A stretch of 64,000 nt of DNA from Semisulcospira habei. Lineage: Eukaryota > Mollusca > Gastropoda > Semisulcospiridae. Positions 4,368 through 60,079 of the stretch are shown one piece after another. A model generated the notes under the pieces. The model saw only the letters and a program-made list of their open reading frames with translations, searched no databases and was not told where the DNA came from. The position numbers and the translations under genes are program-made. Position 1 is the stretch's first letter, and every line of letters starts with the position of its first letter. The stretch covers positions 176,879,039 through 176,943,038 of the forward strand of contig BTPG01000005.1 in assembly GCA_036245525.1 (NCBI GenBank), read 5' to 3'.

Positions 4368-4398
<31 letters not shown>

Positions 4399-11995: not shown

Positions 11996-12013
11996 AAATC
12001 ATGCAAGGAAAGA

Positions 12014-26719: not shown

Positions 26720-27319
26720 CTGTTACAAAACGCAGTCATAGTACTAATATGACTGTCATTACTGTCAGTGTCAAGTCAAAGGCACACTCACAATCCACAA
26801 GATGCCACATATCTACACAGACCTAATCATTAATATAGAAAAGGAAAAAGAATTAGAAGAAATTTTTTTTTCTATGAGTATGAATGCTGACAAAATGCAA
26901 CATTCTTAATCTTAAGTAATACAGGGGTGAGGAAAAAGTAAATTTGTAACTAGCTGGCCGGGTTATTATTATATTAATGCCAGTAAACTACTAGTACTAG
27001 CCCAACACACATTCTGAATCTCTCTCTTGGCTTGACTTCGCGAACGAAGATTTTATAGGAGTTGACCACGACGTCTGCAGGCTTGTTTGTGGCTGCGGAG
27101 GCCAATCCGAGACAGGCAGGTTCGACCGCAGTGGCTGCAGGGGAAGGTATGGCCAGGGTTCTGAGCTGCAGCATCTCTGTTTTTTCTCCTGAGCCGCTTG
27201 TCCTTAAGGCTAGCTCTGTGAGAGTCCTCAAAGGAGACAGCTGCCTTGTAAATGGTGGAGCGCCAGGTGTCACGGTCCGCAGCAAGCGAAGACCACTGGT
27301 GGTGGTCGATTTGGCAAGC

Positions 27320-29436
27320 TCGCCGAACAGTGTGATCTTTGGTAGGCGATGATCCTCCATCCTGGAGACATGCCCCGCCCAGCGGAGCTGTGTCCGCAGC
27401 AGCAAAGCCTCGATGCTCACAGTTTCAGCCTGTTCAAGGACCTCGACGTTGGTGACATAGTCACTCCAGTGAATGCCCAGGATGGTACGCAGGCAGCGCT
27501 GGTGGAAGCGTTCGAGGAGTCGTAGTTGGCTGCGGTAGAGGGCCCAGGACTCGGAACCATACAGCAGGGTGGTGAGGACCACAGCTCTGTACACGCTGAT
27601 CTTGGTGCCTGTTTTCAGCTGTTGATTGTGCCACACCCGCTTGAAAAATCGCCCGAAAGCGCTGTTCGCTTTTGCCAGCCTGTTGTCAAGCTCCTTGTCC
27701 AGCTTGGCGTCCGACGTGATAATGCAGCCAAGGTAGGTAAACTGGTGCACTGACTTTAGTTCAGACTCGCCAATGGTGATGTGAGGAGGGCGATACACTG
27801 TCTTGGGTGCCGGCTGATGGAGGACCTCTGTCTTTTTCAGACTGACCTCGAGTCCAAAGAGATGGGCAGCATCTGCGAAGCAAGACGTGATGCGCTGCAA
27901 GGCTCTCTCTGTGTGTGCAACGAAGGCAGCGTCATCAGCAAAAAGCAGCTCACGAATCAGTTGGTCTAGGGTTTTCGTGTGGGCCTGCAGTCGTCTGAGG
28001 TTGAACAGGCTGCCATCGAGACGATACCTGATGTACACTGCATCGTCATCATCGAGGTCCACTGTGGCCTGCTTCAACATCATGCTAAAAAAGATGGTGA
28101 AGAGGGTCGGTGCCAGCACGCAGCTCTGCTTTACGCCGTTGAGAATAGGGAATGGTTCTGAGAGGTCATTGTTGAGTCTGACCTGGCCTTGCTGGTCCTC
28201 GTGTAGCTGGACAATCATATTGAGGAACTTTGGGGGACAGCCAAGTCGCTCCAGGATCTGCCACATGCCTTGCCTGCTCACAGTGTCGAACGCTTTTGTT
28301 AGGTCGACAAATGTTACGTACAGCCCTTTGTTCTGCTCGCGGCACTTCTCCTGTAGCTGTCTCAGCACAAAGACCATATCGGTGGTGCTCCTGTTTGCTC
28401 TGAAGCCACACTGCCCCTCTGGGAGTTGGTCTTCAGCGATGGCAGGTACCAGCCGATTCAGGAGCAGCCTTGCAAGGATTTTCCCAGCAATGGACAGCAG
28501 GGTATTTCCCCAATAGTTGGAACAGTCAGACTTCTCGCCTTTGTTCTTGTACAGGGTGATAACGACTGCATCACGGAGATCTTTTGGTAGTGTTCCTTCC
28601 TCCCAGCAGCAGAGAAAGAGGTCATGGAGCTTGTTGTGCAGTGCTGTGCCTCCATGTTTCCAGATCTCTGGCGGTATTCCATCAATGCCTGCTGCTTTGC
28701 CACTCTTGAGCTGGTGGTTGGCTGTGAGGGTCTCTTCAGCGGTGGGCGGTTCGTCCAATTCAACCTTTACTGGGAGGTGTGGGATTTGTAGGACGACTGC
28801 TTCTTGAACAGTGCGCTCAGCGCTGAAGAGGCTCTGAAAGTATTCCGACCAGCGGTTCAAGATGGAGGTATTATCTGTGAGGAGTGCCTGGCCATTCGCG
28901 CTTCGCAGAGGACTTTGTACCAGGTGCCTAGGGCCATACACTGCTTTCAGTGCTTCGTAGAAGCCCCTGTAGTCACCGTTGTCAGCGCAAAGCTGGGTCC
29001 TCTGTGCAAGTCTGGTCCACCACTCATTCTGGAGATCTCTGAGCTTGCGCTGGAGACTACTGCAGACGAGGCGGAAGGCAGACTTCTTCACAGGGCAGGA
29101 AGGCTGGGCTAGGTGGGCCTGATGGGCGGCTCTTTTTTTTGCTAGGTGTTCCTGGATCTCTACATCGTTTTCGTCAAACCAGTCTTTGTTTTTCTTTCTG
29201 GCGAAACCCAAGACTTCTGCAGAGGATTTTGCAATAGCAGTTTTCAGTTGTTCCCAAAGTGTTTCAGGGGAGGAGTCTACTGGGTCCGCCGTGTCTTTGA
29301 GCCTGCGCTGTAAATCTGTCTGAAAGGCAGCTTTCACATCGTCACGCTGAAGGCTGGCAACATCAAGCTTTTTCTTGGGGGGGCCCCCATTTCTTGGGTT
29401 TTGGCTTGAAGTGGAGCTTGAGTTTGCAGCGGACAA
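27320..29436 (-). pseudogene. LINE copy 1 reverse transcriptase, C-terminus frameshifted
   Basis: RT motifs are AAGIDGIPPEIWKHGG, SDCSNYWGNTLLS (copy 2 has the usual NYRG), EGQCGFRANRSTTDM, VTFVDLTKAFDTV, GVKQSCVLAPTLFTIF (copy 2 has GVKQGC), LFADDAAFVAH and QFTYLGCII. A 73-base deletion at 27310, with GCA microhomology at its edges, pushes the last ~100 codons into a wrong frame that stays open to 26974. The Arg-to-Trp and Gly-to-Ser changes in conserved motifs also suggest this RT is inactive. Confidence 0.85.
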
Positions 29437-30208
29437 GGCGGTGGTCAGTGTGGCACTCTGCGCTGGGCATCACTCTGGTGAGGAGGACGTCACTGCGGTC
29501 CCTCTGACGCACTAGGACATAGTCGATAAGGTGCCAGTGTTTGGAGCGAGGATGCATCCAGGTGGTCTTTCGACTGTCCTTTTGCTGAAAAGTAGTGTTG
29601 GTGATGACCAGTTGCTGCTCCGCACAGAACTCCAACAGTAGGCGGCCATTGTCATTGCAGTTCCCCATACCATGCTTGCCGAGGACTCCTTTCCAGGCTT
29701 CAGAGTCTTGGCCCACTCTGGCGTTGAAGTCGCCAAGGATGATGACTTTGTCGTCTGCAGGGGTACTCTGTAGGAGGCTGCGCAGGTCAGTGTAAAACTT
29801 GTCCTTTTCAGCAGGCTCTGCCAGGAGGGTTGGGGAGTACACACTGAGAAGGGTGACGTGTTGCTGGTGTCTCAGTGGGAGGCGCATGGACATGATGCGG
29901 TCTGAGTGGCCCATTGGTAGGTTTTCCAGCTTAGTCGCAATGGATGTCTTGACCATGAAACCCACGCCTGAGAGCCGTCTTTCTGATGCAGGCCTGCCTG
30001 ACCAGTAGAGGGTGTACCCAGCACCAAGTTCTTGGAGGCTGCCTTCGTCCGGAAGGCGTACTTCGCTGAGCGCGGCGATGTCGATGTTTAACCTCCGCAA
30101 TTCATGGGCAATGAGGGCGGAGCGACGTTCAGGGCGTCCGCTGTCTGCTTTGTCGAGCATGGTTCGGACGTTCCAGCATGCTACGTTGAGTCCGGTCGTG
30201 GCCGTCAT
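29363..30208 (-). CDS. LINE copy 1 APE endonuclease domain
   Basis: This frame encodes the target-nicking endonuclease, with the family motifs in order: LNVACWNVRTML, IDIAALSEVRLP, GVGFMVKTSI, VTLLSVYSPTL, IILGDFNARVGQD, WHLIDYVLV and a final CHTDHRLVRCKLKL. These supply the Asn, Glu, Asp-x-Asn and His residues of the APE active site, so the domain looks intact. The ATG at 30208 (MTATTGLNVAC) directly precedes the first motif. The frame ends by a shift at a homopolymer rather than at a natural C-terminus. Confidence 0.88.
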   Translation of the reverse strand: MTATTGLNVACWNVRTMLDKADSGRPERRSALIAHELRRLNIDIAALSEVRLPDEGSLQELGAGYTLYWSGRPASERRLSGVGFMVKTSIATKLENLPMGHSDRIMSMRLPLRHQQHVTLLSVYSPTLLAEPAEKDKFYTDLRSLLQSTPADDKVIILGDFNARVGQDSEAWKGVLGKHGMGNCNDNGRLLLEFCAEQQLVITNTTFQQKDSRKTTWMHPRSKHWHLIDYVLVRQRDRSDVLLTRVMPSAECHTDHRLVRCKLKLHFKPKPKKWGPPQEKA

Positions 30209-30995
30209 GAGAGTGGATCCGTTATTCTTTCTTGTTTTTTGACCGCAGGAGAAGATGCCCGTTGACTGCGGCTAGCCAACTGGGGTTGCGAGGGGACGAG
30301 CTTTGGTTAGGCCACCTTTTCTAGGCCCCTCTCCGTGTGGAGCAAGCAGTGCTGTCCCTAGAGAAGGCTGCTTGGTCGTTCAGGGTGTGCCGAGTGATGT
30401 TGTCATCCCCAGGTCAACATCAGGCGACCAATATCCTGAACCGCCTGCATGCAGGTTTGAGACTGCGGCTTCCAGTGACATCTTTCACCTGCCGTTTCGC
30501 CCCTCGCCCGTCGCTACAGGACTTGGAATGGTCAGTGTCATGGTCCGTGGACGTTTCCGAAAGCCTGCGCGGTGGAGCTTTTTGGTGGAGTGCAGTGTGC
30601 GCAGTACTGGCCCCACCCTTTAAACCCTTGGTTCATCTTCCATGGCCTAGCAAGCTGGGACGATGGCATCGAGGTCCTCGGGTCGTAGGTTTTATATCAG
30701 ACTGTCCTTGTCCTAGTCTCTGGCTCAAAAGCCTTCCCCGGAGACACGGGGGCTTTGATGTCAGGAGTTTCCTCCCTTAGCCTTTCCGCAGCCAAGCGGC
30801 CAGGCCTGCAAGGCAGCAGGCGACTCGTGGAGGGCGTGGTCGTCTATGTCCCGTGCAGATGTGAACATCTGCCCACATTCTGAGTGATAGCCTGTCATAT
30901 GTTTATACCATATGTCCACACTACAAAAGTGAACGTGAAAAAAATAGTTGCTATATTTTGCCCCTTGCAAATAAACTGCATTCATCATACAGATA

Positions 30996-31975: not shown

Positions 31976-32520
31976 GTGGTATTGGCTGTTCTTTGCATTT
32001 CTGGACCTCCTGTGACCCTTGACCGTACCGAGGGGTCAGCCAACTTAGTATGCACGGAAAAGGTCTTACCCTCAGGTATCTCTGTACCAAGTTTTGGTTT
32101 GAAATTGAAAACAGTATTTGAGAAGCAGCAATTTTTTCTGAAAATATCGCCATTTTGACCTATTTCTGGAACCCCCGTGACCCTTGACATTTCCAAGGGG
32201 TCCACCAAATCACTATGCATAGAAAGGTCTTAGTACTCTTACCATCAGGTATCTCTGTACCAAGTTTGCATTTGCAGTTGAAAACAGTAATTAGCATTTG
32301 AAATTAGACAGTTTCTGTCCAAATATGGCTATTTTGGACCTATTTTTGGACCCTCTGTGATCTTGGACCTTTGAGCAAGGTCACTGAAATTAGTATGTTT
32401 AGACAGGTCTTGCCACAAAGTACCCTTGCTACTGAGTAAATGCCAATGTTAAAGTTTTGCCATAGACGATGGCCGACCACTAGCCCATTACATAGACTCG
32501 CTTCACTATCGCATGAGCCA
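31976..32520 (+). repeat. R1 repeat, copy D
   Basis: Three to four R1 units, ending with GACCACTAGCCC and TCGCATGAGCCAAAAAC. An A-rich/CACACA stretch precedes it (31896-31955). Confidence 0.75.
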
Positions 32521-32825
32521 AAAACATAGACCTCAAGCCTGTTCCATCAGCAATTACAATCAAAGGCAAAGTAACAATATCACAACTTTAAATTTTACAT
32601 TTTATTAGGTTATTGCTCAGCTTCTTGGGACCAGTGACATTCAAAGCAACAGAAGATCTATTTTGTTAATCTGCTGAAATGTTTATACTGATTACTACTG
32701 ATAATGTACGTAGCAGGCAAGTACAACTAGCTCTGATTAAGGGTTGCTATACACAGACTTCCATGCTACGCAGAAGGGCTTCTGGACAAAGTTAAAATAG
32801 GAGGGTTTGATCAATAGAAAAAAAA

Positions 32826-33525
32826 GAAAAGAAAGGCAAAGCCCTTATGGCTCACGTGTAATGACAGTTCCACATGTGACAATAAGTAAAAGGATGGCTT
32901 CTGCACCAACAGAATCCACGTTTTCTCAAAATTTAATCAGTTTTCACACATCTGTAAAACCCCTGTGACCCTTGTGATGAGTCGACTAAATTAGTATACA
33001 TAGGAAGGTCAGCTACCTCAGTACCTGTGTGCCAAATTTGATTGAAAAGTTTGCAAAAATGTTGATAATACTACAATTCTATATAAAAAAAATAATATTT
33101 TAAAAATTGGCATTTTATACACATTTGTCGACCTTTTGTGACCCTTGACCTTTTCAGAGGGGTCATCCAAATTAGTATATATAGGTCTTACCATCAGGTA
33201 TTTCTGTAGCAAGTTTGGGTTTGAAGTTGTAAATAGTATTTGAGAAAAAAACATTTCTTTTCAAAATATGGCTATTTTTTTTTACATATTTCCTGATCTA
33301 ATGTGACCCTTGACCATTCTGAGGGGTCCCCCAAATTAGTATGCATCATCAGGTATCTCTGTAGCAAGTTTGGGTTTGAAGTTGTGAATTTAGTATTTGA
33401 GAAAAAAACATCCTTTGTCAAAATATGGCCATTTAAAACAAAATCTATTTCCTGAGCTCTTGTGAGTGTGACCCTTGCACTTTCTGTAGTATGCATAGAA
33501 AGGTCTTACCATCAGGTATCTTTGT
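32826..33525 (+). repeat. R1 repeat, copy E, first part
   Basis: It starts AAAGGCAAAGCCCTTATGG and then CTCACGTGTAATGAC. Units run up to ATCAGGTATCTTTGT, where the large DNA transposon inserted. It resumes at 49038 (TTGTACCAAGTTTGG), is split again by a CR1/L2-like LINE at 49222-51619, and ends at 51719 with CTCACGTGAGCC. Confidence 0.85.
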
Positions 33526-33722
33526 GAGTCATTCCACACTGATGATGAACTTTTAGGGGGTTCTCACTTAACAGCATTTCTCATCCAAAAGAAACAACCA
33601 ACTGCACTCAGAACCATTGCTGGGATTATACAGATGTTGATTTAGCAGGTCAACCAAAGAAACTGTTAAAAGTTAAGTCTACTGTTAACTATAAACGAAA
33701 AAAGAGCGAAATTCAACTCAAA

Positions 33723-33884
33723 ATGGCTGCGCAAAACGGGAACGCCGAAAGGAGGCAACTTTGGAGGCTACTTGAGAGGTTTCTGTTACGTAAATTAACC
33801 TTTCAACGGCACAGTGTTATGAAACTGTTGTTGTTTTTCTTTGATATTTCTGAAATCTTTTATTTCAGTAAAGGGATTTTGTAA
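33723..33884 (+). CDS. Small ORF near left end of the large transposon
   Basis: The 53-codon frame starts MAAQNGNAERRQLWRLLERF and lies about 200 bases from the left terminus. In the nested copy (43407 onward) the first 25 codons are kept but the frame stops early. It could be a first exon or chance; there is no family match. Confidence is low. Confidence 0.25.
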   Translation: MAAQNGNAERRQLWRLLERFLLRKLTFQRHSVMKLLLFFFDISEIFYFSKGIL

Positions 33885-36718
33885 AATTTTTCGTTTTCAA
33901 AGAGCGTAACTGCATAACAAGCGGCGTCACACATCGTTGGACATACAAAATAAATCTACAAGTCATTCTTGCTGGTCACAGAACAAACAAAGCCACGAAA
34001 ATCACTAACATATTAAAAAAACTCAAGTTGTACAACTATACACATTGAATGTATAAAGAAATGACCGGCTTCTAAGTTATGGTGTCGCAGATGTTACACA
34101 GTTACGCTGTATTTTTAAAAACGAAACAATGACGAAACCATCGTCTGCTGAGCGGGAAGCCTTCACCCACAACAAGGGTACATATTAGCACATGATTTGA
34201 TGACGTTTCGCCCAAGGTTTCCATATGGTCAAGAGTACGACTAGGCGTCGAGTGCCGGTTTTGCTACCTAACTGACAAAACAAAGCCTTCAAATTCAAAA
34301 CCAGGCATGCATCTCACACAACCATATCTCAACTGGTTAGAAATTGAACATACCTTCTAATCCTGTGTCATTTTTGCATACATCCGATGGGATAAAAGAG
34401 TTATTGTTTTGTGCGATCGAGCGGCGGAAGCCAAAATTTTGAAACGTGACATCACTCATGTGTGTTCGCTTTCAGATAAAAAATTCCGGGGAATGAAATA
34501 GAATTTCAAAACCAAGTTTAGGCCTATAGAGAGCCAATGCAAGTTACTATTTTGTTACCATATCGTCGAATTTTACTTGTGTCTAAGTTAAAAGTAGTTT
34601 GAGGGCAAGTAAAGGCTAGAATGAACATAACGCGTGTCGTCAATTTCACACGTGCAAAATCTCGCTGTGAACCAGAACACAAAAAACGTACCCTGAGGCA
34701 CCTAATTAACATATCCTAGACAACATTACTCTTCATTCTGATTACTGTAAACAAATTCAAAATCGTTTTGAGAATTGAACGAAGGCTGCGTTTTAAACTT
34801 CTTCAAACCAAAAGTTGTAAATTTTGTGTTACGTGCAATCACGGGAAAAAATCTCGCAATCATTAACACACGTGATTTTCTGGAATCGTCGGCCATTTTG
34901 AGATTTGCGTTTGGTCAGTCCTACGTACCTCATATCTACAGGTGACATCGATGGAGCAGGGAAGCGAGAAGGTTAAGTTTTGGTTGTAAACCGTTATGTT
35001 CATGCAAAATTGATGACTGAGCACTATAAATGTTTAAAAAAAGCAATGTAAGTTTGTAAGTGTACTGTTTTTCTAATTACTTCAAATGAATGTTGACGCA
35101 AACAAATGTAAAATCAATCAGCTCAATGACCGCGTGTTTTGAACAAAGGAAGAAAACATTACTTGATGGAATTTGCCTCCATCCGACGATGACGGCTTAG
35201 TTTTGGTTGTAACAGTTATGTTCAAGTTTCTGAATGCGATATTCAATATTTCAAAGGATAAAACAGAACAAGTAATGTATGTTCGGATTAGTTTTGTAGC
35301 GCAACACTTTGAAACAATAATTATTACCTTTTACCGTCATCTTGCCGTTGTGGCCGCTTGTACATAACTTTACACATGGTTGAAGGTTGTCAGCGTCATG
35401 TTCAGGCAATTACAGCGTTATTTTCAAAGTTTAAAAAGAACACTACGTATCACACATTTTCGTTGATTCAGTATTGTTGTCTTTATCCTTCCTGATATAA
35501 AAAATAGAGTAAACGTCTTTTGCTCCTGCTGTTTGATTGTTCATAACTTTACACAGTTTGGCCAGGTAAATCTTTATGTAAAGTTATGTTCAAACCATGA
35601 GTTTTGCATTTTGGGGGAAGGACAAGTCATACATTTTCTTTTACCAATTGTTGTTGATAGGAAGAGATTTTGTGTTATTTGATTTATACTTCGGGTCATA
35701 GATTATGAGTTGCTGAATTATAGCGTTTGTACATATCATATAAACATGACACAGTGCAACAGGAAACAGAGTGTGCTATAGCACCTTCAATAAAAAAAAA
35801 TGGTTGTTTTTCTCATCTTAAGCTGTGATAATGTTCCCATTGTCTTTATGTACTTTATATTATTGTTTGTTTGTTATGTAACATACGATTAAGTAAGAAT
35901 AACCCTGTTCTGGCAGTATTGGACTTAACATAACATGACGTAACTTAGGGTGGTTGGGTTGGAAAGTTCTGTTAGTGTTACACTGTGCTTCCTGCTATTT
36001 TTGTTAGTGTTCTATATAAGTACAGATAGTCTGCATTTTTAAAAAAAAACTTTTCTGCACCCAAGAAATGACAAATTTTAAGAAATGCCTTGAACATAAC
36101 TTGACAACAATTATGTTGTCAAGTTATGTACAGTTAAAACAGTGCTCAGCTAACATTTTCCTTCATAGTAACAGTCTCTTTTAAAGTGGAAGACAGGTTT
36201 GATTATTTTGTCTATTGTAACTTATGTACAAACTATTATTCTAGCTAGATGACTGTGAACATAACTTGACAAACTAGACTGACATGTAAAGTTATGTTCA
36301 TTACTGTAGCACAATTCCTAGTATACTGTCTTTTGGATACCCACTTTGCTAGTTGTTATTTATCAAAATACAGCTTGGGTACTAAAATATAAATTGTTAC
36401 AAACAGAATATACATTTTTCTGTTTTAAATAGTTTGTACATAACATGACAACATCATGTGTTGTCAAGTTATGTTCAACCACAGTTATGTTTGGTTCACA
36501 CATTGTCTTCCAAGTTGCAGTCTGATCATGCCTTTTACTCTTTGTTGTGCTGGCCAAGCTTGATAGCTGCCATGATATATCATAATTTAATAATAACCAG
36601 CCATTTTAGTACAAAACTGTTGAAAAATAACCAGACATATTAGGCTGATGCTAGCTAAAAACAAATCGCAAACATGGGCACAAATTGAAATTATTTGACC
36701 CTCTCTGTTTCAGTTCTT

Positions 36719-36901
36719 CAGGATTTGTTCCTGAATCGAATGTTTCCGAGGCTAAAGGGTCTTTCCCAGCAGTGAAAGCACCCAGAAAATGGATGCTAAA
36801 CACGTGTCGTGGTGCAGTACCCTGACAGGTTGTACCCTGGTGAGCAAGATTATGTCCGCATACTTGTGCTTATGAATGATAGCAGCCAGGAATCTTTTTA
36901 A
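36719..36901 (+). CDS. Candidate transposon exon, possibly frameshifted
   Basis: After a good acceptor (CTCTCTGTTTCAG) one frame reads SSGFVPESNVSEAKGSFPAV, then KAPRKWMLNTCRGAVP, to a stop. The neighbouring frame takes over as RLYPGEQDYVRILVLMNDSS to a stop at 36901. The two together look like one exon with a one-base shift. It lies 260 bases upstream of the terminal exon at 37162. No family is recognised. Confidence 0.3.
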
Positions 36902-37161
36902 AGTATTTGAAATCATAAAAATGTGGATTTTGAACATGTTTTAGCTCCATTTAAGTTTGAGATGGAGACATTAAAAAATTATAAAAGGTTGTAAGGTCCG
37001 GCCCGAAACAAGTGGGACTGGTTGTCACTGGCCAATAAAGAAAAGGAGTTTGAAGTTTCCTTAGGAAACTTGATCAGCAGGAAGCTTGTTATGGGTTGCT
37101 TCAAGAAAGTGCTGTGATCATTATGCAACAGAAATAAAGCAGTCTCTTTTTTCTGTTTCAG

Positions 37162-37358
37162 GAGTGATTGTCGGAGTAGATCCTCTGAGGGTCAAATTCC
37201 TCAAGCCTCACCAGACAAAACAAGGAGTATTTGTTTACCCTGAAATAGATGACATCCAAGAAGTAGGGGATGATATGATTGTAGCGTCGAATGTAGATTT
37301 CCTGCCACTCTCCAACAGTGCACGCGAGTGGAGAGTGGTTGGGTTTGATCAATTTTAA
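37162..37358 (+). CDS. Terminal exon of the large transposon's gene, paralogous to 60080-60282
   Basis: An acceptor TTCTGTTTCAG is followed by GVIVGVDPLRVKFLKPHQ, then FVYPEIDDIQEVGDDMIVAS and a C-terminus SAREWRVVGFDQF, with stop at 37358. The exon at 60080-60282 on the other strand has the same length and order: GVV, RFLHPH, FFVYPAVADVQIV, DMIIA and KEWRVEGYDF. Both enter in the same phase (AG before GA-GTG). The pattern of short strands with FVYP-D resembles an SH3/Tudor-like barrel, but that is only an impression. This is the strongest protein link between the two DNA transposons here. Confidence 0.7.
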
Positions 37359-37496
37359 TTTGTTTCTGCCATGTTTACCTCAAGTAAAAAGCTAACTAAA
37401 GTGAGTACTTTCTGTGCCAGTGGTCTGCTGAAAACCATTGGTCGTGGTAAACTTAGGTCAATTGGTGCTAGATTATATTTGTTTGAAAGTGGTACA

Positions 37497-37878
37497 TGAT
37501 TGATTGTACATTGCTTAACGTCCCGACAGCAACAAGGCTTTCTCAGGACGTGCCTGCACTGCTTGTGAAAAAAATACTAAACAGAACATTGAATGTATGT
37601 CGCCAGCCGGTCAAATACATTAAATAAACCTAACACATGGGGCCTAAATAAAGCTAAGACCATTTAGCAACACACATCCAATATCAAGAGCTACAGGCAG
37701 TGCAGACAGTAGGGAGAATTTTAAAAAGGCAAATACAGGTGAATGGACAAAGGGTAGACAGAAACACATGCCCCAGAATAGAGAGAAAAACCCACCCTGT
37801 GGGGCTGACCAGGGTGACCCTGGGAACTAAAAAATACCTAACCCCACCCAAGTCCCCCAGGGCAGACCCGGGTGGGGG
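37497..37878 (-). mobile_element. SINE-like retroposon, copy 3, with 13-base target duplication
   Basis: Same family as 12014-12375 and 14706-15090, flanked by TGAAAGTGGTACA at 37484-37496 and 37879-37891. It is inserted in the large DNA transposon just after its terminal exon. Confidence 0.85.
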
Positions 37879-37965
37879 TGAAAGTGGTACAGAAAAGTGT
37901 TTCTTTGTTGAGGTATTTGGGCAAAAGGTAGGCTCCGATGTCATACGGCCCATTATGATATAGCA

Positions 37966-39633
37966 AATAATAATAATAATAATAATTACGGTATTTATAA
38001 TGCGCTTATCTTATAATAATTATAACTCTAAGCGCACACTCACAACTCTAGCACGCATGCGCACGCTTTAGACAATGACTCACGTACCACAAACAGTGAA
38101 GTACATTACGACGGTCAGCTTGGGGTGGGGAGTGTGGTGATATAGTGCTAAAACTGTTGAAAGAGGTGAGTTTTGAGGGCGGACTGGAAGGAGGAGAGAG
38201 AGTGTTTCTGACGGAGAGAGAGTGGGAGAGTGTTCCAGGTGGATGGACCGTAGACGGAGAAGGAGCGGGGGCCGAAAGTGTTAAGTTTGGTGCGAGGGAT
38301 GTGGATGCGGAGAGGGTCGGAGGCAGAGCGGAGAGAGCGGGAAGGTGTGTAGGGGTGAAGTAAGTTAGAGAGATAGGCAGGAGCGCAGTTGTTCAGGGAT
38401 TTGTAGCAGAGAGACAGAACTTTGTATTGGATGCGTTGGGGGATTGAGAGCCAGTGGAGGAGTTTGAGCAGGGGTGTGATGTGGTCGGATTTTTTCTTTC
38501 TGAGGACGAGGCGGGCAGCATTGTTCTGGACACGCTGGAGAGTGAAGATGGTGGAGTGAGGGAGACCGGAAAGGAGAGAGTTGCAATAGTCGATGCGAGA
38601 TAAGATGAGAGAGACAGCAAGTTTGGTGGCAGCTTCGGTAGTGAGGTATTTTCTGATCTGACTGATGCGGCGGAGGTGGAAATAGCATGCCTGGGTCGTG
38701 GCGGAGACGAAGCTGGTCATGGACAGAGAGGAATCGAGGATGACGCCGAGGTTCTTGGCCGAGTCAGAGAGGGAGATGGGGGTGCTATCGAGTTGAAGGT
38801 GGAGAGAGGGAGGGAGCTGGGAGAGTTTCTGGCGAGTGCCTACCAGCATGGCTTCCGTTTTGTCGTCGTTCAGTTTCAGTTTGTTTGCTGTCATCCAGTT
38901 TTTCACGTCTTCGTAGCAGTCAGCCGTGCGAGTCAGTAGTGACTGAGTGTTGTCGAGTTTGTCATTGTCTTGCAGTTGTGCGTCGTCAGCGTAGAGGTGG
39001 TGGTGTATGCGGTGAGACTGGATGATGTTGGACAGAGGAGAGGTGTAGAGTGTGAAAAGGACCGGGCCCAGGACGGATCCCTGTGGAACTCCGCAGGAGA
39101 GCGTTACCGGGTTGGAAGAGACGCCGTTGATGGTGACGTACTGCTGTCTGTCGGAGAGGTAGGAGAGAAACCAGGAGTGAGCAGAGTTGGTGATGCCGAA
39201 GGAGTGGTGGAGTCGGTGGAGGAGGATAGAGTGGTCTATAGTGTCAAAGGCGGCAGAGAGATCGAGTAGTGTAAGAAGGGAGATGTTGCCAGAGTCGGTG
39301 GAGAGAAGCAGCTCGTTCAAGATATGTAGGAGGGCTGTTTCAGTGCTGTGATGTTTGCGATAGGCAGACTGGAATGGACTGAGGAGGTTGTTGTCGGTGA
39401 GATGGAGGTTGAGCTGGTTGAGAACAACCTTCTCAAGAAGCTTGGACAGGAAAGAGAGATTGGAGACTGGGCGATAGTTCTTGAGTTCGTTTGGGTCGAG
39501 GTTGTGTTTTTTGAGGAGAGGACGGACGATGGCGGACTTGAAGATATCGGGGACGGAGCCGTTTTCTAGAGATGCGTTGATGATGTCGGTAATGAAGGGT
39601 AGAAGTTTTGGAAGGCCGTCATGGTAGAGAGAG
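37966..39633 (-). mobile_element. CR1/L2-like LINE, 5'-truncated, copy 1
   Basis: The RT frame is open from the truncation point near 39633 to the stop at 38148. It reads [67 protein letters not shown] and [13 protein letters not shown], and ends [13 protein letters not shown]. This is the CR1/L2/Rex1 style of RT. The 3' tail is a TAA microsatellite at 37966-37986. It is 95 percent or more identical by eye to the copy at 49222-51619. The possible duplication AGCAA is too short to rely on. The RT lacks its first part because of truncation. Confidence 0.9.
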
Positions 39634-40944
39634 CATGAGCAATGGCTAACTAACGTCAGTGTTCAAGAGTGTTAAATGTATTGTTGGTGTTCTAAAATGT
39701 ATTGAAAGTTTAAACTTTTTTCACTTGGTGTTTTCTCACATTGTGGAACCACATTGTGCAGAGATTTGAACCCCATGTTGTAAAGTTATGTACAAACATA
39801 TATGTACAGATTTGTTTTGCTACTTGCGTTAAACATTGTAGACACAATTATTAAATCTGGTAAATGCTGGGGTTTACTGAACACATAATTTGATGTAATT
39901 TTCCATTTTTATTGTTTATTTTGACTTCAGACTTCAGTGTTGATAATACCAACATGTTTCGGTTGTAAAGTTATGTTCAACTTGCCATTTTCACACATTA
40001 TTCTCTTGTATTTTCAATTTCAAACCTGATAATTACATCACTGCTGCTCTGTAGTGCAGTAGAAAGCTACAGGCGATTGTGATTTTTATTTTCTGGTTCT
40101 TGTCCTTTTGTGGAGGCACTTTTTTGCTGAAATTTAAAGCTCGTGGTGTAAAGTTATACAAACAATTACAATATGTATTTGCTGCTTTCGTTCCTAATTT
40201 AGACACAATTTTGGGATAAATAAAAGTGTATTTGTTAAAAACACATCACTTGAGTAGTGTTTTGTTATTTTTGGATTTATGCATGTTAGTTAAAGAGCCT
40301 CAAGTTTGTTTGTCACGGCGTAAAGTTATGTTCAAGCATTGTGTTTTTCTGTGAATGGTGTATTTTTCCTAAATTATTCTGTAATCTACAAGAGTTTAGT
40401 ACACAATAAAGGGAAAACACACCATCTTAATTGACTTTCTTTGCTGTGTTGTCAAGGATTTAAAAATTTTTGTTCATAAAATAGACTGTGTTCACACTTA
40501 TCTCAATTAGGATAGTTTAGAATCTATCAATGTGCAATTGAAATTGTGTGTTTAATACCACACACAATTTTTAAAATATAATTTATGCATTTTTTTTTTT
40601 CATAAATGTATAGCTGAGTGTAAAGTTATGTTCAAACAATTTCAGTGTTGCACCATTGTGTATCTATTCACCCCATCAAACTTTCTTTGAAATTTAAGCA
40701 TAGCCTAGTAAGGAAAGAACAACATGATAATTTTATACAGCATGAATCTACCTTGTGAAAGCTAGAAAATGACTAAGTGCCAAAAGGTGCTCTCACAAAG
40801 AGGACAACTGGGTTGAAAATCAAAGTGTGACATAAAGTACCAGAAAATGTATTAAGTGATGTACACTGTATTGGCAATGTGTTTGTAAAAGAAAAAGATA
40901 ATATCTGAAATGGTTTTTGAGAAAATGGCTGTTAAGATTTGTAA

Positions 40945-42440
40945 GTCTGGATATTGCGACATAGTGCCTTTAAATTAGTGGGATAAAAAAACACAAATCA
41001 GTTTCTAAACAGTTAAAATAATAAGTAGTGGTCACAATTGACCTATCCAAACAATTACTGCTTTTTGGCTTAGAATGTTATAATCCCTGAACATGATTTG
41101 TGTTGCAATACCTGACATCCGACCATATTCAATTTTTAAAACATTTTTAAAACATCCTACAACCAAGAAAAACACACTTTGTCATGTTATATACCACTCA
41201 CAGGAATACATGCACACATTAGAGCACAATGGGAGTCTATCTTTGCTGCCCAAATATATTTATTGGCAGTCAGGGCCAGAATTTGTAACTTATGTCGAAC
41301 ATCAGGATTGCAGCAGATATCCCCAGAATAGTTATCAGAAACCACAAACACAAAGCCTTTCCCCCAGTTTCAAGCTACAATATTTAACAAACAAAACAGA
41401 TATGAAGAACAAACTGCATACAGCTTTCTGATGTAATATACATGATGAAACATGACGTGCTAAACAGTCTGCGCCCGAAAAAATAAAACAAATATTCAAA
41501 TAAGTTTTATCTGTGTACAGGCTGATGCACTATTTTAACTCTGACCCTCAGATTTAGAAGGTCCTAATGGCTATGCAACTGCTTGTCCAAAATGGCTCAT
41601 TTTAACAGTGCCTTTGCCCCCAAAAGTTCTACAATCCATATGTGTTGAACGTCAGGATTGCAGCAGCAAATGTTGGCACAAGCCTGACGTCCGATACATT
41701 TTTTATCATTGCATTATTATGTTATGAAATTCACCTGTTTCTTGATCTCATTATCTTACATTTGCGTCACAACAACTGCACGTCTCCATCAAACGACAAA
41801 AATACATCGGTGACCCGTGTTCATTCAAATAACTCATTTACCAACTTGCATCGATTGGAGGTCAGATTTGCGACATGTGTTCGCGATCGAACGTCAGGTT
41901 GCTACAGCCATAAAATTTGTTATCACAAGAAATCATCTTCATTCTCCAACCTACTGCCTAAAATCGGTGCTGGAGTCTCGGGCGATTCAAACTCTTGAAA
42001 ATGTTTGTCTATGAGTATGATTACACTCGAACGTCAGAAGTGATCGAACGTCAGATTTATGAAAACAGTTGCGACAAAATGTCACGAGTTGTAGCTCTCC
42101 ATTGACAAACCGGACATTCAAAACAACCACGCTGGAATGTGGCCCATAATGCATCTATCATAACCGGACGATCGTAGACCAAAAAAACCCAAAACAACTT
42201 TGTTAAACTTATCAAATAGTTGAACGTCGGATCTTGCGACAAAAACTGGCCGCTCACAATTTTTTTGCCAGCTTAGAAAACTGTGACGGAAAAGTAAATT
42301 TAAAGCATATAAAATATTCAACGAAAGCGAAACAACGCAATGACACCATTTTCGGTTTGGGTCAGCGTGCCTTTCGCTAGCACAAGTTTGCGGAAATTAA
42401 GATGCTGCTGTTGCGACAAATCTGACATCCGACAGTGGCT
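40945..42440. repeat. Array of TCGAACGTCAG...TTGCGACA words (motif ii)
   Basis: About nine copies or half-copies: 40950-40962, 41101-41124, 41294-41316, 41645-41667, 41684-41695, 41887-41907, 42027-42080, 42220-42243, 42410-42434. The consensus is near TGAACGTC(A/G)GATNTTGCGACA, in both orientations. It lies between motif arrays i and iii of the large transposon. Confidence 0.8.
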
Positions 42441-42845
42441 ACTTTCAAGAGCAATAAACAAAAGCATGGCTTGCCTTCAAATCTGGGAAATACACGGATT
42501 ATAAGATCAATCTTCCCTGAACATATGGGCATGGTTGGCACCAGGTTTGTTATTGTTGCTTTTACACGCGAGATCAAAACAGACCGACGGCATGTCATTG
42601 TCCCGGGTCGATTTTTATTGGTGAATTCTGGCGTTTTACAGTATACTCACCAAACGGCTTTACCTTAGGTGCAGAAATTATTGCCAGTATATCTTCAATC
42701 ATTCACACACACACTGCACTTGTTAAAGTCAACACGTGTCTTTTTAAACAGATTTTAGTTTCACGCAAAAGAGATCACTCACTTTTTGCTCACCTTTTGG
42801 CACTTAGTCAAATGTGTTTTATAAATGTGTGACGTTGTCTTGTAA

Positions 42846-43115
42846 ATGTTATGTACAAACCATAACGGTTTTTCGCCAATTACATCCAAACGACTGCTCA
42901 TGGGGAAATTCTTTTGGGGGGGCATGTTACTTATGACTAAAAACATCACAATAATGCAAAATGATGCTCATATGTTTAAGTTCAAAATCAGAGACCCATG
43001 TCACACTCTTTGGACACCCAGTCGTACTCTTGACCATATATGGAAGTGTGTACACAACAAGGTGAACGTGAAATGGTCCCAAATTCTAGGATATACGACA
43101 TCATTGGAAGAAAAG
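42846..43115 (+). CDS. Candidate exon of the large transposon, W-LGYTT-LE motif
   Basis: The open frame ends NKVNVKWSQILGYTTSLEEK directly at a donor (GTAAGC at 43116), phase 0. The next exon of the same gene is probably 46177-46254 (phase 0, ILETNGDEALAKFLKIHE). Together they give a W-x(4)-LG-TT-LE-x(n)-DE-L-KFLK pattern. In the nested copy the same exon end (to 44063) and next exon (44519-44578) are preserved. The start codon is uncertain; only the last ~50 residues look conserved. No known family is identified. Confidence 0.5.
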
Positions 43116-44518
43116 GTAAGCTGAACTGATCATATTATTCTCCTATCTACTATTTTACATGGTTATCTGCATATTTTATTTTGTGATTGTAGAGAAATAC
43201 CTAGTTTGAGAGTCATTCCACACTGATGATGACTTTTTAGGGGGCTCTCACTTAACAGCATTTCTCATCCAAAAGAAACGACCAACTGCACTCAGAACCA
43301 TTGCTGGGATTATACAGATGTTGATTAAGCAGGTCAAGCAAAGAAACTGTTAAAAGTTAAGTCTACTATTAACTATGAACGAAAAAAGAGCGAAATTCAA
43401 CTCAAAATGGCTGCGCAAAACAGGAACGCCGAAAGGAGGCAACTTTGGTGGCTACTTGAGAGGTTTCTGTTACGTAAATTAACCTTTTAACCGCACAGTG
43501 TTATGAAACTGTTGTTGTTTTTCTTTGATATTTCTGAAATCTTTTATTTCAGTAAAGGGATTTTGTAAAATTTTTCGTTTTCAAAGAGCGTAACTGCGTA
43601 ACAAGCGGCGTCACACGTCTCCGGACATACAAAATAAACTACAAGTCATTCTTGCTGGTCACAGAACAAACAAAGCCACGAAAATCACTAACATATTAAA
43701 AAACTAAAGTTGTACAACTACACAAATTGAATGTATATATGCACAGAATAAAGAGATGACCGGCTTCTAAGTTATGGTGTCGCAGATGTTACACAGTTAC
43801 GCTGTATTTTTCAAAACGAAACAATGACGAAACCGTCGTCTGCTGAGCGGGAAGCCTTCACCCACAACAAGGGTACATATTAGCACATGATTTGATGACG
43901 TTTCGCCCAAGGTTTCCATATATGGAAGTGTGTACACAACAATAAAGTGTGACGTGTCACACATGCAACACGCGGTTACACAGTTACGCACAAAGTGAGA
44001 CTTGAGGTGGTGAATGTGAAATGGTACCAAATCCTGGGATATACAACATCATTGGAAGAAAAGGTAAGCTGAACTGATCATATTGTAGAGAAATACCAAG
44101 TTTGAATGACGCGTTGCATTGACTATGCTGGTGTCGCATGTTACGCAGTGCAGTGAACTGCTTGTTTTCACGAAGAATAGTGCTTTAGATACCTTTTGGG
44201 GGGCTTTTATCAGAGAAACCTTATCGTTTAAGCTGTTTTCAAGTTGCAAAATCTGGGTAAAAGCATGTTACTTCATAAAAATCTAACATGCGTAACTGCA
44301 TTACACTTTTCACGAGTCGCATGTAATGCAGTTACCTGAAGATGATGTAGCATGTTATGTTGTTATTATGTAACACAAAAAAGAACGTTTTCACGTATGT
44401 TTACTTTGCATTGACCTTACCTTTGTCCACAGCACGAATTTGGATTAAGTGTAAATATTCTAGCGTTTTTAATAATCTTTTCCTGGTGTTTATCACATAA
44501 AAAGCCTTTTCTTCCCAG

Positions 44519-44578
44519 ATTTTGGAGACTAATGGTGATGAAGCGCTGGTGAAGTTCTTAAAGATTCATGAGAGGTAG
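44519..44578 (+). CDS. Last exon in the nested copy
   Basis: Acceptor TTTCTTCCCAG, then ILETNGDEALVKFLKIHER and a stop. It pairs in phase 0 with the exon ending at 44063 (VNVKWYQILGYTTSLEEK). Confidence 0.5.
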   Translation: MLETNGDEALVKFLKIHER

Positions 44579-44840
44579 TACACATTTCCCCCATGTTGAA
44601 GACATTATCATGGGTCTCTGTGGAGGATGTCACGCTTTTGGATCCGCCCACCATCAACGTCCGTGGACAACACTTCTTTTTATAAATTTTGTTGGGGTTA
44701 TCAGGATGCTTCGGGATTTTGGTGGTGGTGGGGAGGGGTGTATGGAATAAATACATGAATGTCAGAAATAAATGATTTCCACTGTCCCAAGTATTTTGCA
44801 TTTGTTGAGTTCTTAAATCTTGCCCCCGAGGATGGATGTA

Positions 44841-45592
44841 TGTTTGTGTCGCATGTTACACAGTTACAGATCAGTGTTGATGTTGTATAACATCAAAGCA
44901 AGTACAAGTTTTTGTCTCTTTTACCTTTAGCATCATCATTGACCACTGAAAGTACATTTTATGTTACATATTTGTTTCATATTTGTTGACCCTAAAGTTT
45001 GAAACAAAAACGTTTTATAATGGGAGTGTAACTGTGTTACGGTGTCGCGAACAAAAACTATACCTCTTTCCGAAAAAAATTGCATCTAATAACTCAAGAA
45101 TTGTTTTTTACCTTCTCCTTGTTGTGTTCAAGTAAGCCATGATTGATAAGACATTTTGTATGATTTGTACATTGCTCACAGCTGAATTTCTGTCACGGTG
45201 TAACACAGTTACTTTGTAGTTTGTGTCGCATGTTACACAGTTACAGATTAGTGTTGATGTTGTATAACATCAAAGCAAGTACAAGTTTTTGTCTCTTTTA
45301 CCTTTAGCATCGTCACTGACCACTGAAAGTAAATATGTTACATATTTGTTTCATATTTTTTTACCCTAAAGTTTGAAACAAAAACGTTTTAGTATGGGGG
45401 TGTAACTGTGTTACGGTGTCGTGAAGAAAAAATATACCTCTTTCCAAAACAAATTTCATCTAATAACTCAAGAATTGTTTTTTACCTTTCTCCTTGTTGT
45501 GTTCAAGTAAGCCAGGATTGATAAGACATTTTGCATGATTTGTGCATTGCTCACAGCTGAATTTCTGTCACAGTGTAACGCAGTTACACCGC
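44841..45592. repeat. Tandem duplication, period 377 bases
   Basis: The blocks 44841-45217 and 45218-45592 match closely (GTTGATGTTGTATAACATC, ACCCTAAAGTTTGAAAC, TAACTCAAGAATTG). Each carries three motif-iii words. Confidence 0.88.
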
Positions 45593-46176
45593 AGTGACAT
45601 ATTTCATATTTACCTGTCTATTGGCAGTTTGGTATGTTGGTCTGCTTTTCTTTTTACAGGTTATAAACTACACATATTAACACAATAATTAACAATGGTG
45701 CTAACATTTAAAGTTGAGTTTGTTTTTTTAGCAGTGATTCCCCCTTTTAGTCATCATTAGTGTGGAATGACTCTTGAATGATGCGATGCATTGACTATGC
45801 TGGTGTCGCATGTTACGCAGTGCACAGAACTGCTTGTTTTCAGGAAGAATAATGCTTTAGATATCTTTTTGGGGGCATTTATCAGAGAAACCTTATCGTT
45901 TAAGCTGTTTTCAAGTTGCAAAATCTGGGTAAAAGCATGTTACTTCATAAAAATCGAACATGCGTAACTGCATTACACTTTTCACGAGTCCCGTGTAATG
46001 CAGTTACGTTGTTACTCTGTAACACAAAAAAGAACGTTTTTCACGTATGTTTACTTTGCATTGACCTTATTTTTATCCATAGCACACCTTTGGATTAAGT
46101 GTAAACATTCTAGCGTTTTTAATAATCTTTTCCTGGTGTTTATCACATAAATACTTAAAAAGCCTTTTCTTCCCAG

Positions 46177-46254
46177 ATTTTGGAGACTAATGGTGATGAA
46201 GCGCTGGCAAAGTTCTTAAAGATTCACGAGACAGTACACATTTCCACGTGTTGA
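46177..46254 (+). CDS. Last exon of the large transposon's W-LGYTT gene
   Basis: Acceptor TTTCTTCCCAG, then ILETNGDEALAKFLKIHE plus a short tail TVHISTC and a stop. Nearly identical to 44519-44578, with a lost stop and seven extra codons. Acidic then basic, helical in look. The function is unknown. Confidence 0.5.
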   Translation: MLETNGDEALAKFLKIHETVHISTC

Positions 46255-46327
46255 AGACATTATCATGGGTCTCTGTGGGGGATGTCACGCAACATATTTC
46301 ATATTTACCCTTCTATTGGCAGTTTGG

Positions 46328-46657
46328 TAATAATAATAATAATAATAATAATTATATTTATAAAGCGCAAACTCCCTGCAGTGCAGGCTCTAAGCGCTGT
46401 ACAATGCAAATCAAAGTTAAAACCTAAACACAAATCAATAAACAAAAAACCCCACAAAATACAAATATTACAATACAAATTCTAAAATTAACAGCACATA
46501 AACACACCCAAAGCACAAACAACCATCGCAACAAGGACTGGGACAGGATCATCACGATGTTATTGTGAAACAGAAAAGAGACTGGAATTTAGTAAGACAG
46601 AGTAGTGGCTCTGGAAAAGATGAGTTTTAAGCTGACTTTTGAAAGAAATTACTGTCG
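46328..46657 (-). mobile_element. LINE 3' end fragment (CR1/L2-like)
   Basis: TAA microsatellite tail at 46328-46352, then AAAGCGCAAACTCCCTGCAG and CTCTAAGCGCTGTACAATG. On the minus strand the far end encodes a short SFKSQLKTHLF-like C-terminus. The empty site (GGCAGTTTGGTATGTTGG) is seen in the nested copy at 45626. It is a different subfamily from 37966-39633. Confidence 0.7.
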
Positions 46658-46705
46658 GTGTGTATGTTGGTCTGCTTTTCTTTTTACAGGTTATAAACTA
46701 CACAT

Positions 46706-48926
46706 TCATTCATTCAATCCTCTCTGCGCCGTCTGGTGCTTGAGGCGACGGCAAGGGAGCGCCACTTTTGTCTGTCAGCTGCTATTTTGGGTGCTGTTTG
46801 CAGAGTAAGGCCTCTGTTCTTGAGCTCTCGCTCCACGGTTCGGCGCCACGTCTCCTTTGGTCGCCCACGGTTTCTCTTCCCCTGTGGTGTCCATCTCAGT
46901 GCCACCCTTGGTAATAAGTCGGGTGACATTCTGCAAACGTGGCCTAGCCATCTCCATCTCCGTGTGGCGATGGTTTCAGCGATGCTGTCTGCGCCTGCTC
47001 TCTTCCGTAGTTCGTTTGTAATCATGTTTGGCCAGAAGACCTTCATGATCCGTCGCAGGCACTTGTTCTGGAAGACTTCCAGCTTGCGTTCCGTAGCAGT
47101 AGTGGATTTCCAGCACTCTGACCCATAGAGAAGGACACTCTAGCTTGCTTACTTACTTACTTACTTACGCCTGTCACCCCTACCCGGGTATAGGCCGTCG
47201 ACGAGAGACCTCCAGCAACTCCTGTCCTGTGCTTCTCCTTCGATTCTACTCCAGGTGGTTCCCAGTCTCTTGATGTCTGCTTGGAGGTCTCGACGCCAGG
47301 AGTTTCTCGGCCTACCTCTTTTCCTCTTTCCCTGGGGGTTCCATGACAATGCCTGCCTAGTGATACTGGAAGCTGGCTTTCTCAGAGTGACCGATCCATT
47401 CCCATCTTCTTCGCCCAATTTCATTCTCTGCTGTTATCTGCTCTGTTCTCTCCCAGAGTCTGACGTTGCTGATCTTCTCTGGCCAGTGGATTTTCAAAAT
47501 TCTTCTAAGGCAACTGTTCATGAAGGTCTGTACTCTGTTGACTGTGGTTTTTGTCAATCTCCAAGTCTCTGCTCCATATAGGAGAACTGCTTTTACATTG
47601 GAGTTGAAAATCCGGACTTTGGTGTGTTGTGACAGCTCTCTGTAACTCCACACTTTTTTCAACTGGAGAAAGGCTGCTCTGGCTTTACCGATTCGTGCTC
47701 TGACATCTGCATCAGTGCCGCCTTTTTTGTCTATGATGCTCCCGAGATAGGTGAAGGACTCCACCTCCTCCAACGGGGTGCCAGCAAGCAAGACTGGTTC
47801 CTCCCTGGTTGCGTTCAGCCTCATTGTCTTTGTTTTCTGTTTGTGAATGGTGAGGCCCACTTGGGACGAGATGTCAGCAAGCCTCGTGGTCTTGTCCTGC
47901 ATTTGTTGATGAGTGTGGGACAGTAATGCCAAGTCGTCTGCAAAATCGAGGTCGTCAAGCTAAAGGACACTCAGCACGTTACTTAAAAATACGAAGCTTG
48001 GTGTGGATGCTCAGGTTTGTGGTCCTCCAGATGGGTTTCAGCATTGCGAAGGCTTGGTTGGCTTTGCTGATTCTTGTGGTGATCTCCCTTGTGCAGTCTC
48101 CATCTGTGGTAACCTTGCTGCCCAGGTACGTGAACTCGTCCACCTCTTGCAGAGGTTGGTCATTGATGGTGATTGGGTCGCCCACTATGGTGTTCTTCCT
48201 CATGACTTGAGTCTTCCTAATGTTGACCCCGAGACCTATGGAGCTTGCTGACTGTGTCAACTGTTGTGTCTTCTGTTGCATGTCCTGGTTTCTGCTTGCC
48301 AGCAGCCCGATATCATCGGCGTAGTCGAGGTCATCCAGCATTGAGGTCAGCGTCCACTGAATTCCCTGCCTCCTTCCCTCTGTGGTGCGGCGCATGATCC
48401 AATCAATTGCCATTGAGAAGAGGATCGGCGAAAGAATACATCCTTGTTTCACTCCGGTTTCCACCTTAAACGGTTCGGTGAGCTGGTTGTTTACTTAGGA
48501 AAGTAAAGATAGGAGACACCAGAAATCAGCGCTACGACGTGGCCAAGTTGAAAGACCCAAAAGTGAAAGAAGAGTTTAGGCTGGCCCTCAGGAATAGATT
48601 TAGTGTTTTGGAAGATGAGACAGCGCTGACTATTGAAGATTTCAACAGAGCCATGAAGGAAACAGGAGGGGAAGTTTTAGGATACAGAAAGAGCAGGAAG
48701 ACAGAGTGGATCTCAGAAGACACGTGGGCTCGCATAGAAGAGAGAAGACAGATCAAGAAGAAACTTTTGGACACCAAATCACCAAGACTGAAGGAAAGAA
48801 TATCAAGAGAATACAGAGAGAAAGATCAAGCGGTGAAGACATCAGCGAGAAGAGACAAGAGAATGCACACAGAAAGGCTGGCAGAAGAAGCGGAGGCAGC
48901 TGCAAAACAGAGAGACATGAAGACAG
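46706..48926 (-). mobile_element. RTE-like LINE with 5' inversion (twin priming), hit by another LINE
   Basis: A 12-base target duplication TAAACTACACAT lies at 46694-46705 and 48927-48938, and the ATTC-repeat tail is at 46706-46720. From 46714 to about 48494 the minus strand encodes the RT C-terminal half: GVKQGCILSPILFSMA, LDDLDYADDIGLLA, EFTYLGSKVTTDG, then RWRWLGHVCRMSPD and the basic tail. From about 48495 to 48926 the strand switches: the plus strand encodes the linker before the RT (RYDVAKLKDPKVKEEFRLAL, KAVKTSARRDKR-like). The middle RT part is missing. This is the usual product of twin-primed LINE integration. The 822-base LINE at 47141-47962 later interrupted it. Confidence 0.88.
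47141..47962 (-). mobile_element. RTE-type LINE fragment nested in another LINE
   Basis: Target duplication AAGGACACTC (47131-47140 and 47963-47972), AAGT-type tail at 47144-47168. The minus strand carries [34 protein letters not shown] and the GKRKRGRPRNSW end. Same family as 23282-25574 and nearly identical to it. One base change near 47385 breaks the C-terminal frame. Confidence 0.92.
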
Positions 48927-49037
48927 TAAACTACACATATTAACACAATAATTAACAATGGTGCTAACATTTAAAGTTGAGTTTGTTTTTTTAGCAGTGA
49001 TTTCCCCCTTTTAGTCATCATTAGTGTGGAATGACTC

Positions 49038-49221
49038 TTGTACCAAGTTTGGATTTGAAGTTGTAAATAGTATTTGAGAAAAAAATAAATTATGTCAATA
49101 TTATGATTTCATATATTTCCTGATCCCGTGACCTTGACCTTTGTGAGAGGTCACTGAAATTAGTATTTTAGAAAGGTCTTGCCACAAAGTATCCTTGGGC
49201 TAAGTTTGAAAACTGTAGCTT
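49038..49221 (+). repeat. R1 repeat, copy E, second part
   Basis: It resumes with TTGTACCAAGTTTGG after the large transposon and ends ACTGTAGCTT, where the CR1/L2-like LINE inserted. Confidence 0.85.
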
Positions 49222-57408: not shown

Positions 57409-58077
57409 GACTTCTTTTTGATCCTTTTGATAATTACAGTACATAAACTTCATATTTTCCAAAATTCAACATGATGCTTGTGATTGTTAATTGTCTGTAT
57501 CCATCATTCCATGTTATTGCTGATGTAGCAAAATTGTAACTTGAGCTCTGCTGGATAAATGTTAGAAATTTATTTATGTGATATCACTCTGGTCCAGCTT
57601 ATATTATAAAGTTATATATGAGTTCATCTACAGTACTGAGCACCAAAAGTGGGAAAATAGGATAAAATTTAAAAAAAATGCTACAGATGAAACAATGCCA
57701 TTTTTAGACACGTCTGACAAAGTATAATACAAATCGAAAAAAGAAAATAATCTTTTCTGTGTTGACACAATTGAGGATCGACTGAGGGGGGTATGATTCC
57801 CGTTTCAGATGCACCATAGGGACACATGCAATGCACCCACTCTAATTAAATTTAATATGCACCATTTTGTGAACATGTAATGTTCAGTCAAAGAGTAAAT
57901 ATACTTTTTGAGATGATTTTAGAAAATAAATCACGTCGTACCAAATCATTTCACCACAAAAGCAAGAACAGCTGTTTTCCAGTAGTCAAGCACCAGCAAG
58001 GTATAAAACAAGTGAAACAATATGGGAACCAAAAACAATAAAATTATAATAGTTGCATCTCCTAAATATTACACTTG

Positions 58078-59499: not shown

Positions 59500-60079
59500 C
59501 ACTTGTTAGGTATGACGTTTCAGATGCCACGGGACACCATGAATGAAAAAACACTTGTTATTACGTGTCATTTCCAGTTGTTCTGGTCTGGGGGACATGC
59601 AGTCATTGATAGCATACGATACCTCATAAAATATAGGTATACAGAAAAAATATTGTAAACACTAATGGTAATGGTAGGCAGTTTGATCAGGATTGGCTTC
59701 TATATTTACCAATGTTACTAGAGGTGTGAAAGTGTGGGTCTGAGGGTATAGAGGTACAAGGCTTGTGTACACAAGATGAATGATTATTTGCAATGTACTT
59801 GTTGAGTTTTGTGTGTATTAATGAATGCTTTAGTTGAACTTTTTATAAAATAAGTGAACGTGTTAGAAAATTAAATGTACAATAAAACAAAACAAAAAGA
59901 ACACCCAAAAAAGATTTTGGGGGTGTCTGTAAATATGAACAGTCGCACACACACACATGCAAATGATCCAATGAATACAGTTCATCATTTATTGTAAATA
60001 TATGTGAAAAATAAAACCAGATAAGAAATTTAAAAAAAAAAAAAAACACTCATCAAAGCTTTGGCAGAAACACAGCTCA

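Follow-up and report, generated by a model that had tools for sequence, protein, structure and literature searches.

A nest of 4-base elements

We analyzed a 64,000-nt stretch of the genome of the gastropod Semisulcospira habei (contig BTPG01000005.1), hereafter the window, whose positions serve as coordinates, and focused on the region 33526-49037. The sequence-only reading of this region described a single 15.5-kb DNA transposon, possibly of a new superfamily. Its ends, its 4-base duplication, and the satellite unit restored by excision are real, but the reading as a single element is wrong. The region is a nest, in which an outer element with a 4-base duplication (E1) took in an inner element (E3), a third element (E4), a nested sister copy of the outer one (E2), and retroelements (Table 1). 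The inverted ends of E1 are identical at 22 of 23 bases, the same count as first reported, and its termini read GAGTC..GACTC. E1 is bordered by TTGT on both sides, and the rejoined flanks give exactly one unit of a ~165-bp satellite, as had been claimed. This satellite-like repeat is dispersed in the window (1441-2301, 10929-11948, 31996-33525, and 49038-49221), and E1 sits within one of its units. With up to 3 mismatches allowed, the outer end matches at 4 points in the window and at none in 100 shuffles.

The order of insertions can be followed in E2. This copy lacks the segment 34227-43035 and retains the exact empty site of E3 (~43913-43925, sequence TTTCCATATATGG). Because it also keeps the uninterrupted form of its own insertion point, at 44102-44105, its insertion into the right arm of E1 is directly visible. 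E1 proper amounts to ~1.57 kb and is non-autonomous. The previous estimate of ~8.2 kb without later insertions does not hold, since 34227-43035 is a separate element. Much of what remains of the region consists of LINE pieces and a SINE-like repeat.

E3 has inverted termini of the form GGTCAAGAGTACGACT[A/G]GG[C/T]GTC. In the 1.98-Gb genome of the window, from which the loci numbered L009 to L042 were fetched, its ends occur in 738 + 729 places at ≤2 mismatches (control: 0 + 0). Three two-ended copies measure 4,747-4,753 bp, and identical 4-base flanks were found in 8 of the 11 copies examined: ATAT in the window, L033, L034, L035, and L039+L040, ATCT in L030 and L037+L038, and AGTT in L029. 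E4 has a second copy in L011, with the duplication ATTT. An exon-like stretch with an acceptor site and a stop, read by eye at 37163-37358, is found in all E3 copies compared, and E1 and E2 hold exon-like stretches too, also read by eye.

Table 1. Components of the nest at 33526-49037 (LINE and SINE, long and short interspersed nuclear elements)
Feature	Position	Strand	Remarks
E1 left arm	33526..34226	+	inverted end 33526-33548; TTGT 33522-33525; final 4 bases: ATAT copy next to E3
E3	34227..43035		family of 4.75 kb, with inserts; inverted ends 34227-34249 / 43013-43035; ATAT 34223-34226 / 43036-43039
E3 word array, left half	35358..36481		TGTAAAGTTATGTTCAAAC and its reverse, several as inverted pairs
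SINE-like repeat in E3	37497..37878		further copies 12013-12380, 14706-15086
LINE fragment in E3	37954..39631	-	reverse-transcriptase-like frame; borders by comparison with L029
E3 word array, right half	39776..40638	+	words in the same orientation
E4 in E3	40771..42809		ends GACTAAGTGCCAAAAGGTG; AAAT duplication; word array CAAATCTGACGTTCGA; empty site in L030, L031
E1 right arm, piece 1	43036..43209	+	E1/E2 comparison
E2, outer-family copy in E1	43210..45773	+	TTGA duplication 43206-43209 / 45774-45777
E1 right arm, piece 2	45778..46321	+	E1/E2 comparison
Insert not in E2	46322..46662		TAA run at start; borders by eye
E1 right arm, piece 3	46663..46705	+	E1/E2 comparison
RTE-like LINE fragments	46706..48938		duplicated TAAACTACACAT at 46694-46705 / 48927-48938; 47152-47961 is 98.9% identical to 25575-24764
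E1 right end	48939..49037	+	inverted end 49015-49037; TTGT 49038-49041

The outer family and its transposase

Genomic copies with the same ends, which the sequence-only reading had proposed to look for, do exist: with ≤3 mismatches allowed, outer ends number 156 + 150 (control: 1 + 0). We sampled the first 20, in list order, of 100 exact left ends listed, and read up to 10 kb at each. A right end lies within the stretch read at 16 of the 20 loci (there is none for L016, L022, L024, and L027), and identical 4-base flanks border 13 of these 16 two-ended copies. Nine of the 16 are 2,614-2,626 bp long and match the consensus built from the nine and E2 at 95.6-99.8% identity. The main form of the family, which is young, measures ~2,623 bp and has a ~374-bp tandem duplication with some of the words described below. 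Sequences at its ends include GAGTCATTCC, GAGTCATTCCACACT, and GAGTCATTC, and a scan of viral contigs with the outer end pattern gave 0 matches. The duplications are of 4 bases and of varied sequence, at odds, as had been noted, with those of hAT (8 bases), Tc1/mariner (TA), piggyBac (TTAA), and MULE (7-12 bases).

Long copies of the outer and E3 families, considered as autonomous candidates, turned out to be ordinary ones that carry inserts, which by eye are LINE, DIRS-like, or hAT-like. The outer copy in L010 carries at consensus 770-773 a 4.2-kb insert with ends GGCCACACAGGGCAATT and, by eye, a 3-base duplication; the copy in L024 has a long terminal repeat retroelement with a possible envelope-like frame at ~2.9 to 9 kb. 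A LINE in L013 (near consensus 703-715) and E3 in the window (34223, 43036) hit the same palindrome of the outer element, TTCCATATATGG.

Within one outer copy, that of L022, lies a transposase gene with an internal deletion. A close relative of this gene is intact in L041, as a frame of ~941 amino acids that has the Pfam domain DUF1280 and the motifs D, D, C(2)C, H(4)H, and E. The core of the CMCT clade (DDE, with C(2)C and H(3-4)H between the second D and the E) is present in this frame and in its homologues. Frames of 944-945 amino acids occur elsewhere in the genome, where an association with outer ends was not seen. Transposase frames lie at C1:40602284, C4:16601943, and C5:149809260. The intact C-terminal half has 116 homologues in the protein database at E ≤ 0.01, of which 25 (with P0001) and 45 were aligned; those with a name include molluscs (Littorina, Haliotis, Plakobranchus, and Nucella). 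Searched with Foldseek, a homologue from Littorina resembles in fold RAG1, a protein of our immune system, as well as BbRAGL and HzTransib; these make up all 48 hits at E ≤ 0.001. The RAG1/Transib-type core fold was seen on a homologue, P0003, whose identity to the L041 protein is 51%, and not on the genome's own protein, and the fold alignments with Transib, ProtoRAG, and RAG1 have 11-14% identity.

The open reading frame (ORF) of L022 begins with LCRICG, and more C/H positions come after it. RAG1 is its sole match in the PDB at E ≤ 10 (E = 0.2), and in Pfam its zinc region matches zf-AD (E = 0.001) and RAG1_imp_bd (E = 1.4, and 0.062 in a longer frame). One homologue (P0113) has RAG1_imp_bd (PF12560) ahead of DUF1280, and another has a RING finger ahead of it. 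In the protein database the L022 ORF has no match at E ≤ 0.001 (1792 candidates), and in viral contigs its protein gave 1 pattern match and no relative. We place the transposase in Chapaev because, as of 2015, Chapaev and its Transib-superfamily relatives were the only transposable elements known to have the 'Chapa' domain of the RAG1 N-terminus and the RING finger (PMC4411706, in the part cited here). The zinc domain, taken by itself, is no more than suggestive of this placement.

The window itself carries no gene of this kind, and the sequence-only reading had found no recognisable transposase in the nest. Translations in all six frames (stops as X) of 33526-37700 and 39663-43209, and in three frames of 43922-45773, were scanned against Pfam. 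Nothing reaches the cut-off, the best matches below it being LemA (0.21) and DUF3694 (0.02). We then used 119 proteins (the 116 homologues, those of L041 and L042, and the L022 ORF) as tblastn queries against the window and L009-L042. Matches at E ≤ 0.001 lie in L022, L041, and L042 only; with the threshold set at E ≤ 10, the strongest one in the window has E = 0.065, and the fetched outer and E3 copies other than L022 have no similarity to this transposase. Hence, no Chapaev membership is shown for E3 and E4.

Taken together, we consider it rather likely that the outer family belongs to the Chapaev group (CMCT clade), with atypical GA..TC ends, and is moved in trans by the ~941-amino-acid RAG1-type transposase. 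Chapaev elements make a 4-base target duplication. The likeness to the clade lies in the RAG1-type transposase and its motifs, in relatives that combine RAG1_imp_bd or a RING finger with DUF1280, and in the short duplication, which is given as 2-5 bp for CMCT elements in the part of PMC12730594 used here. On the other hand, most CMCT lineages have CA..TG termini according to the same part, which makes no mention of ~180-bp word arrays like those found here, and in outer-family sequence the gene was seen here only in its deleted form. N-RAG-TP of Aplysia californica, which is described as consisting wholly of RAG1-N-terminal-like sequence (PMC8355894, in part), resembles the present case as a transposon with such a region, and named homologues here include molluscs, but the intact relatives here carry a full catalytic core. 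Transib, ProtoRAG, and RAG1 differ by a 5-base instead of a 4-base duplication, by their ends, and by the low fold-alignment identities given above.

Several observations weigh against the Chapaev assignment. On the left side of L022, a reversed nested copy and ~0.7 kb of other sequence (3973-4655) separate outer position 167 from the ORF, and the right end lies beyond the stretch read. In contig C1, none of 19 transposase matches lies near the 13 exact 23-base left ends (by eye; left ends only); therefore, the intact genes may sit between other ends. The intact frame has no DNA similarity to the outer consensus, as is expected only if the whole gene was deleted from the latter. The GAGTC..GACTC ends are without the CA..TG termini, which hold for most CMCT elements and so do not strictly define them. 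The zinc-region scores are under the Pfam cut-offs (19.7 of 28 bits for zf-AD; 8.8, and 13.3 in the longer frame, of 23.3 for RAG1_imp_bd), and RAG1 was not found in the PDB by sequence profile. Finally, flanks are not identical in the outer copies L010, L020, and L026, the last with a long run of unknown bases, and agree at 3 of 4 bases in L031, L032, and L036, of E3 type. We call the Chapaev assignment likely and not proved because a single locus, L022, links the ends to the transposase.

Another superfamily with 4-base duplications is an unlikely but serious alternative, with L022 holding a landed or captured fragment of an unrelated Chapaev transposon. Sola elements have GAG-type termini, as does the outer family. 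They also make 4-base duplications (PMC10741241, in the part cited). The obscured left border of the L022 gene and the C1 matches lying away from exact left ends would fit such a capture, and E3 and E4, likewise 4-base elements, are without Chapaev similarity. However, on its 3' side the gene fragment continues directly as outer sequence from position 211, and the junction shows no inverted end (by eye), the transposase found here has the RAG1/CMCT core, and the fetched outer copies gave no other transposase (Pfam, eye, and Chapaev-type queries only). Pfam scans of the window interior, in which no Sola profile was searched, turned up no Sola-like transposase. As for a single 15.5-kb transposon (8.2-kb core) of a new superfamily, we give it almost no chance. 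The outer ends and duplication on which it was based are genuine, but at 34227-43035 there is a separate pair of ends with a duplication and an empty site of their own, ends of this kind number 1467 in the genome, and the nine outer copies complete at ~2.62 kb are too short to hold it. A new superfamily is unsupported because L022 encloses a deleted DUF1280, RAG1-fold transposase gene with CMCT motifs, which points to Chapaev.

Under the Chapaev assignment, a transposase whose catalytic core is of RAG1 type and whose zinc region is like the RAG1 N-terminus would act by cut-and-paste, in trans, on short non-autonomous derivatives, as family sizes and identities suggest. A transposase of the L022 type would cut at the GAGTCATTCC ends, and the 4-base stagger of insertion is demonstrated here. 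We take the outer family to be, most probably, a new family of Chapaev type whose ends are atypical, alongside an unexplained regular pattern of words. If the link is true, this young RAG1-type family still has intact-looking transposase genes in the genome, and would help to trace how the parts of RAG1 arose and to supply RAG-like transposases.

Words at ~180-bp spacing

The internal word arrays described in the sequence-only reading are real, but they are split among three families instead of belonging to one element. The outer, E3, and E4 families each have their own 14-19-bp word at a spacing of 178-190 bp, with little similarity between spacers. Words were searched with an iterated motif against first-order Markov shuffles (threshold of 0.5 hits per shuffle), and the period was scanned from 100 to 300 in data and control alike. 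The E3 family copy L029 has 18 word sites with a period of 180, and L032, which has E3 ends, has 17 with a period of 178; 0 of 5000 random placements were as regular in both cases. The outer consensus has 14 sites in 9 clusters (period 185.5; 13/5000 as regular) and E4 has 11 (187.5; 27/5000). The second E4 copy, which is not independent of E4, has 12 (189.5; 37/5000). A simpler word count gave weaker results, with 0/20000 placements as regular for L029 and L032, 629/20000 for the outer consensus, and 72/20000 for E4.

These words may be protein-binding boxes for transposition or for placement in chromatin. More specifically, each family's transposase (RAG1-like in the outer family at minimum), or a partner protein, could bind them. 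The boxes, often in inverted pairs, would then be set at nucleosome-repeat spacing over kilobases, each in an equivalent place along an array of nucleosomes, and kept through spacer turnover in a chromatin-matched architecture, an idea to which we give little credence at present. A rival reading, which we hold to be less likely than not, is that they are functionless relics of an old captured tandem satellite. The spacing is near usual satellite unit lengths, the outer family does have its word-bearing tandem duplication of ~374 bp, and the spacers slightly exceed shuffles in similarity (L029, mean 9.58 vs 8.57 and largest 22 vs 14; L032, mean 9.69 vs 8.90 and largest 19 vs 18; words paired in the flanks were left in). 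A relic fits less well with the column counts, in which the word is sharply set off from its surroundings, and with L029 and L032, which have word and period in common, yet no blastn match of at least 60 bases between their interiors. Nor does it fit the divergence among 7 E3 copies, which is lower in words (28/2024) than at non-CpG positions overall (651/29409); among 1162 shifts one gave a value as low, and among 5000 random window sets 47 did. Among the papers listed in the literature for such spaced words none fitted, judging by title and start of abstract. Their presence in three families, and in two E3 subfamilies with non-aligning interiors, hints at transposons that space putative protein-binding boxes to nucleosome length.

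Other elements in the window and fetched loci

Another 4-base element lies at 4085-7229 of L034, with flanks ATAA and ends GGGTCATTCTCTGG that resemble the outer GAGTCATTC. A candidate 6.9-kb element at 270-7168 of L028 has ends GACCGTGATAATTCAA, flanks GATT, and a longest frame of 130 amino acids. In the window, 58077-59500 may be an additional element; its inverted ends read GCAGGGCCTCAGATCCACG, its flanks are ACTT, and it has a 258-amino-acid frame that is hAT-like by eye. Pieces of 27023-30780 and 54449-56611 are 98.6-99.0% identical, which indicates a recent repeat or duplication.

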